A stretch of 64,000 nucleotides of DNA from assembly GCA_029262235.1 (NCBI GenBank), contig JAJCZU010000003.1, positions 372,001-436,000 on the forward strand, written 5' to 3'. This document shows positions 53,692-54,661 of this stretch, piece after piece. This DNA is from Candidatus Eiseniibacteriota bacterium. GTDB lineage: Bacteria; Orphanbacterota; Orphanbacteria; Orphanbacterales; Orphanbacteraceae. The notes under the pieces were generated by a model. The model saw only the letters and a list, made by a program, of their open reading frames with translations, searched no databases and was not told the DNA's origin. Position numbers and translations under genes: made by a program. How positions within the stretch are numbered: the stretch's first letter is position 1; each line of letters starts with the position of its first letter.

Positions 53692-53740
53692 ATCATGGGG
53701 TCCGAATTGCAGTCAAGATGGCAGGGGGAGGGGGATTCGG

Positions 53741-53820
53741 AGCGGAGGGGAGCGGAGGGGAGCGGAGGGGAGCGGAGGGGAGCGGAGGGGAGCGGAGGGG
53801 AGCGGAGGGGAGCGGAGGCG
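53741..53820 (+). repeat. Tandem array of a 10-base unit (8 copies)
   Basis: Eight head-to-tail copies of AGCGGAGGGG occur, the last ending GCG. Two degenerate units recur near 54101-54130 just before the second inverted-repeat element. Being purine-rich, the array may vary in copy number by slippage. Confidence 0.95.
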
Positions 53821-53823
53821 CGG

Positions 53824-53992
53824 GATCGTGCGGTCGGAGCGCGGCTTGCGATCCCTGGCCGGTCGCCTTTGATGGGGGAGATGGCGGGTGGCGGGGATCG
53901 GGGCTTCTGTTGCGTCCGGACGGGCGGGAGCGAGTGCGCCGAAGGCTCCCTCTCAAGTTGGTCTCGCTTCGCCGCGCTCCGACCGCACGATC
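53824..53992. repeat. Inverted-repeat element, copy 1 (~170 bases)
   Basis: Perfect 22-base ends (53824-53845 and 53971-53992) pair with each other and flank about 125 bases. The interior includes a second possible stem, CGATCCC with GGGGATCG, and the block CGAAGGCTCCCTCTCAAGTT. It is closely similar to copy 2 at 54134-54303 and is followed by a purine-rich stretch (54013-54125). Confidence 0.88.
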
Positions 53993-54133
53993 GCGCCCCC
54001 CGGCCCGCGATTGAGGGAAAAAAGGGAAGGGAATCGGAGGCGGAAAGAGGGGAAGGAATGGAGAGTGGCGGAAAGAGAAAGAGGGCGGAGTGGGAGTCGG
54101 AGCGGAGGGGATCGGAGGGGAACGGAGGGGCTG

Positions 54134-54303
54134 GATCGTGTGGCCGGGAGCGCGGCTTGCGATCCCTGGCCGGTCGCCTTTGGTAGTGGAGATGGCGGGT
54201 GGCGGGGATCGTTACGTCTGTTGCGTCCGGACGGGCGGAAAGCGGTGCGCCGAAGGCTCCCTCTCAAGTTGGTCTCGCTGCGCCGCGCTCCGGCCGCACG
54301 ATC
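54134..54303. repeat. Inverted-repeat element, copy 2 (~170 bases)
   Basis: This is a second copy of the element at 53824-53992, with most of the interior identical. In the ends, a T-A pair of copy 1 is replaced by C-G on both arms, and one C-G pair becomes T-G, still paired in RNA. It is followed by a purine-rich stretch (about 54323-54395). Confidence 0.88.
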
Positions 54304-54478
54304 GCGCCCCCCGGCCCCACGATCGAGGGAGGGGAAGGAATAGGAAAGAGGCGGAAGGAGGAAGAGGGGGGCGGACAGAGTAAAAGGCGGAAAAGAGGGC
54401 GAAATGAGGCCGCAGAGCGGTGAGCGGAGACATCCTGGGGCAATCGCCCGCCGGTCGCCCATCCCACCCGTCGCCCCG

Positions 54479-54586: not shown

Positions 54587-54661
54587 GGCGGGTGGCGCGC
54601 CGGGCGGGGACCCCGATCGAGCCTGTCGAGATCGGGGTGCCGCGGCGCGACAGGACCCGCC
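54587..54661 (+). repeat. Nested palindromic repeat, copy C
   Basis: This 75-base copy has arms GGCGGGTGGCGCG and CGCGACAGGACCCGCC and an inner stem CCCCGATC / GATCGGGG around GAGCCTGTCGAG. It lies 142 bases upstream of rpsU. Confidence 0.88.

Follow-up and report, generated by a model that had tools for sequence, protein, structure and literature searches.

The window, i.e., the whole stretch of 64,000 nucleotides analysed here, carries two related hairpins between divergent genes: a minus-strand gene for an NtrC-type regulator and rpsU, which is plus-strand (names obtained by reading the translations). The promoter-like sequence TTGACT/ATATGA adjoins the regulator start and TTGAAT/TAGCAT precedes rpsU; both were picked out by eye, and a consensus promoter scan recovered neither. 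The matched parts of this gene pair are about 1500 nt apart here, as compared with 600-1200 nt in related genomes. In a related genus, the same intergenic region upstream of rpsU contains a different tandem hairpin repeat in four copies (G004:C4:52700-54900). A second, unrelated hairpin repeat of about 73-80 bp lies in the window at 54588-54661, where the rpsU leader region begins; this genome contains some 18 copies of it or more, and further ones occur in the one other genome examined of the same genus (hereafter the sister genome), with 83-97% identity, and stands in tandem at one sister-genome site (G001:C193).

The whole hairpin of copy 1, including its basal stem, spans 53814..54001 and that of copy 2 spans 54127..54312. 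The covariance model R1 matches them at 53831-53993 (E 7.5e-25) and 54142-54304 (E 5.7e-23), values which are to be read in the light of both copies being members of its training set. Covariance model and fold support both hairpins, and the G-U bias described below makes the minus strand the probable RNA strand. In the basal helix P1, the left arm of copy 1 (53824..53845) pairs with its right arm (53971..53992) and that of copy 2 (54134..54156) with 54282..54303, exactly as an earlier note made from the sequence had given them; the left (5') arm of copy 2 has one additional G compared with copy 1. The double change that the same note described, from T-A in copy 1 to C-G in copy 2, is present too. 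On the plus strand, the single copies fold with z-scores of -5.2 and -4.2 relative to shuffled sequence, and copy 1 reaches -5.4 on the minus strand; the hairpin pair exceeds chance. Family alignments locate, in copy 1, the left strands of the inner helices P2 and P3 together with the conserved plus-strand sequence CTTTGATG at 53848..53874, the almost invariant motif CTTCTGTTGC (GCAACAGAAG in a minus-strand RNA) at 53904..53913 and the conserved motif GTGCGCCGAAG (CUUCGGCGCAC in a minus-strand RNA) at 53934..53944. In copy 2, the conserved motifs TCTGTTGC and GTGCGCCGAAG are found at 54217..54224 and 54245..54255, respectively.

The window pair forms a 171-nt direct repeat of 92% identity, and belongs to a tandem duplication of 311 bp, of which each copy is the hairpin part. 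Over 189 columns, identity between the hairpins is 90%, as against just 64% and 52% for the co-duplicated flanks. Eight perfect GGAGCGGAGG 10-mers precede copy 1 on the plus strand (53739..53818), and a degenerate array of the same unit, within the duplicated 311 bp, lies ahead of copy 2 (54099-54130); the array ahead of copy 1 is likely a fast-changing minisatellite.

A sequence search with copy 1 detected about 22 full-length relatives in its own genome (4.47 Mb), and 22 of these were used to train R1. The earlier note had described a pair of elements and had suggested a genome-wide search for their ends. Both elements are real, but they belong to a genome-wide family: R1 finds 24 copies in this genome, one weak reverse-strand echo being left uncounted, and the sister genome, whose contigs coincide with GenBank JABDJQ01 ('Gemmatimonadetes bacterium SS_bin_27'), holds at least 13, R1 giving 13 matches there, one of them partial. 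The model has no match in five other genomes of the same taxonomic family (all the examined genomes of the phylum), nor in about 50 more distant genomes. Identity between copies is low, at about 65%. Rfam 15, searched on both strands at gathering and permissive E-values, has no family that matches the window pair, and gave a single irrelevant weak match for 12 other loci; no Rfam 15 covariance model matches the elements at its gathering score. A pattern scan of wider genome contigs returned chiefly the sister genome, the remainder being chance matches, and a scan of viral sequences returned a single match, by chance. A Fibrobacterota genome (MAG JPNA_maxbin.212; L070:2755-2900, L080:1-371) contains a tandem repeat with TCTGTTGC then GGTGCGCCGAAG in the same order and CTTTGA ahead. 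It shares two motifs with the family but has no match to the covariance model, and we do not claim it as a member. The element is thus a member of a genus-specific, multicopy repeat family that is absent from the Rfam list.

Three stacked helices, the basal P1 followed by P2 and P3, are common to the copies. In an alignment of 37 copies, 26 of the 34 base pairs have changes on both sides, double-change cells number 184 versus 53 after shuffling, and standard pairs fill 87.4% of the cells, versus 70.7% in shuffles and about 30-45% with slid partners; none of 500 shuffles attained any of the observed covariation measures. The reverse-strand alignment is 89.7% paired. P1 extends outward past the model in nearly every copy, and its outer arms, complementary within each copy, have no sequence in common with most other copies. 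The unpaired motifs are near-invariant: on the plus strand they read CTTTGATG, TTCTGTTGC, GGTGCGCCGAAG and GGCTCAA, and several are more than 90% conserved. The three helices and their covariation are established for the family, although DNA-level correction of imperfect palindromes could be the source of part of the latter.

Comparison with the sister genome gives information on the age of the copies and on the constraint acting on them. As the masked flanks of nine of the 11 sister-genome loci align well to family loci of this genome, nine copies are at orthologous sites in both species. A tree joins most orthologues with each other and does not sort copies by genome, and so lends no support to gene conversion between copies. 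Identity between orthologues is 0.94 in the motifs, 0.94 in P2, 0.90 in P3, 0.84 in P1 and 0.70 in the apical variable region; in their downstream flanks it is 0.25-0.64 (mean about 0.42), as compared with 0.28 for unrelated flanks. Since the nine orthologous copies retain motifs and stems at the conservation level of coding DNA, in contrast to the decayed sequence downstream of them, the element is conserved in place. Double changes in orthologue stems are also in excess (15 observed versus 4 expected).

The same comparison points to the strand on which the structure would act. The stems of orthologous copies differ by 20 transitions that affect one side of a pair only: in 19 of these, a G-U pair is preserved when the complement of the plus strand is read, and in one when the plus strand itself is read (p = 4e-5); the ratio is 14:1 after removal of three pairs with uncertain alignment. 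This is a clean test, in that changes at separate loci are independent. In the unpaired apical region, G/A and C/T changes occur at the same rate (0.114 and 0.112 per site), so that the result is not accounted for by a strand bias in mutation. It was unchanged on an alignment from R2, an independent reverse-strand model. On held-out copies, R2 scored better than R1 by a mean of +1.3 bits (11 of 15 copies), not significantly (p = 0.12-0.15). In a count that takes in every copy, G-U is not in excess on the plus strand (18 G-U versus 37 A-C cells; in the arms, 32 versus 59), and wobble counts in recent paralog pairs are mixed. The third claim made on the arms, that a C-G pair becomes a T-G wobble, has to be seen in this context: the change is real, but it does not demonstrate pairing in a plus-strand RNA, the orthologue wobbles favouring the opposite strand, and members of this family do not typically change towards T-G. 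Given this bias, an RNA transcribed from the minus strand of the window is most likely; G-T pairs in single-stranded DNA would be a weaker alternative to RNA as the cause of the bias. Upstream of the RNA strand, no promoter-like signal stood out above shuffles.

With respect to neighbouring genes, a hand tally oriented by the plus strand of the model places 16 of the 20 copies that have a defined neighbour on the 3' side of a gene of their own strand (p = 0.006), many of them 20-90 nt past its stop codon. As this position refers to the plus strand, the putative RNA would run tail-to-tail into the neighbouring gene. The neighbours are functionally mixed, and a riboswitch or cis-regulatory leader was rejected on two grounds, i.e., this absence of a common function and the orientation of the RNA strand, which mostly runs into the 3' ends of opposite-strand genes. 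The tail downstream of the element is purine-rich (mean 0.59 versus 0.46 after other genes), a feature that is common but not universal and that we do not retain as a defining one. A third repeat family (about 40-75 bp, with a long hairpin) has some 30 copies in this genome, for example at L088:4340-4415 and L099:3118-3190; at the former locus, two copies of the RNA element in inverted orientation flank it.

Several observations bear on the mobility of the family. The copy at C4:990164 (L096) has its hairpin, basal stem and tail in common with the copy at the GAPDH locus, and over 225 nt it matches the version of that locus in the sister species at 88% identity. An empty site in the sister species, with a spacer of about 33 nt as against more than 300 nt, stands opposite the copy at C6:64042 (L101); this site could also have arisen by loss in the sister species. 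The earlier note had proposed looking for target-site duplications and for a transposase. The single empty site examined (L101 against sister contig C151) has no clear duplication, but its flank has diverged, and a Y1_Tnp (IS200/IS605/RAYT) gene is absent from both genomes of the genus, which are 95.5% and 82% complete, the controls being positive in 5 of 14 cases. Partial 5' fragments of about 30-60 nt lie beside full copies at L090, L096 and L101, which suggests partial tandem duplication at the hairpin. From the 24 dispersed copies, the stem and tail shared by L096 and the empty site at L101, we infer that the family was once mobile. The suggestion that the pair might be either a non-coding RNA or a MITE-like element is thus supported as regards selection on an RNA fold and past movement, but typical MITE traits are lacking: no common sequence unites the terminal arms and the copies are not near-identical, so that on these features we do not class the family as MITEs proper. 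A REP/REPIN-RAYT system was likewise discarded in the absence of a Y1_Tnp gene from both genomes.

Could the copies be mobile DNA and nothing else, the hairpin serving transposition in single-stranded or cruciform form and the resident copies having no cellular function? Their dispersal, intergenic position and restriction to one genus would agree with this, as would the stem and tail common to two loci, the empty site and the tandem copies. We nevertheless consider it unlikely, as copies fixed at orthologous sites preserve their motifs and fold to a degree seen in coding DNA, amid decaying flanks, as P1 arms are unrelated between most copies, and as neither a Y1_Tnp gene nor, at L101, a target-site duplication was found. 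Still less probable is a 3'-end element of the neighbouring gene, that is, a large plus-strand terminator or stabiliser of mRNA ends, similar to an oversized REP/BIME. This plus-strand 3'-UTR reading was favoured at first by the position bias described above, and the very stable stem and the convergent gene pairs with one inverted copy each (L087, L088) would also suit it. It was demoted by the 19:1 wobble bias for the other strand; moreover, a U-tract is absent after the stem, about eight copies lie elsewhere, including both window copies between their divergent genes, and a terminator has no need of conserved unpaired motifs.

The covariation itself might owe its existence to quasi-palindrome correction, i.e., template switching at imperfect inverted repeats, with selection acting only on the interior motifs. 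The P1 arms, very long, near-perfect and unrelated in sequence between copies, are what such correction could produce, and G-U pairs are rare overall on the strand read in the earlier note. Such a process should, however, erase one-sided mismatches equally on both strands, and the survivors are 19:1 for one strand; the short internal helices P2 and P3 covary too. We regard this explanation as very improbable, the least probable of the three.

Starting from the observed family, fold, covariation, conservation in place and strand-specific wobble bias, the reading that we favour, with moderate confidence, is that of a small, formerly mobile, non-coding RNA repeat maintained by selection on RNA structure. 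The copies, presumably transcribed, would yield from the minus strand of the window a structured RNA of about 150-190 nt, in which the basal helix P1, long and usually exceeding 20 bp, is followed by P2 and P3 with a variable junction on top; this apical junction would present GCAACAGAAGU, CUUCGGCGCACC and CAUCAAAG (RNA-strand sequences) as single strands. As a small non-autonomous unit bounded by the base of the hairpin, the element would have spread in an ancestor of the genus, to be inherited vertically from then on with occasional duplication, selection holding fold and unpaired motifs in place copy by copy. The likeliest reason for this selection, though a guess, would be that a shared partner, either a protein or an RNA, is bound by the conserved apex. 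A more ambitious version can be put forward tentatively, and we think it rather doubtful: the family would represent a class of small multicopy RNAs comparable to bacterial SINEs, now co-opted as some two dozen resident ncRNA genes in each genome, with the unpaired GCAACAGAAGU and CUUCGGCGCACC as a binding platform for a common partner.

The family provides a natural test case for small mobile hairpins turning into conserved RNAs, in which a given copy can be followed between species at matching sites and wobble changes alone indicate the RNA strand. For a bacterial group that has received little study, it is also an additional, unlisted RNA family, which can be searched for with the covariance models built here.

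In ERIC, Correia (NEMIS), RUP and other MITE-like hairpin repeats of bacteria, terminal repeats are conserved and copies are largely similar. Unlike these, the present family has terminal arms with no common sequence and about 65% identity between copies, structure and internal motifs being what is conserved; like them, it is roughly 100-200 bp long, intergenic, bounded by inverted-repeat ends and foldable as RNA (PMC2229807). With REP/REPIN sequences it shares the character of multicopy extragenic palindromes, frequently near gene ends, but REPs measure 20-40 bp and are tied to a Y1 transposase (PMC3116915, PMC3733652), whereas the present element is about 190 nt long with internal helices, in a genus with no Y1_Tnp gene. 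The covarying helices around conserved loops resemble those of structured ncRNA families of Rfam 15, none of which matches it on either strand at permissive E-values (window pair and 12 other loci). Among the intergenic repeats bcr1-bcr18 of the Bacillus cereus group, as they are summarised in PMC3446304 (citing Kristoffersen 2011), bcr10 and bcr18 have a predicted RNA structure, and some repeats are transcribed within UTRs while others are MITE-like in their spread. The present family, dispersed, intergenic, clade-restricted and with a covarying RNA structure, is like these small one-clade repeats, some of which have a conserved RNA secondary structure (PMC3446304). It differs in joining, within one family, wide dispersal, freely drifting complementary arms, conserved unpaired motifs and an orthologue G-U strand bias, and no relation between the two was found in Rfam. 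The bcr repeats (PMC3446304), together with other MITE-like hairpin repeats (PMC2229807), are its nearest precedents.
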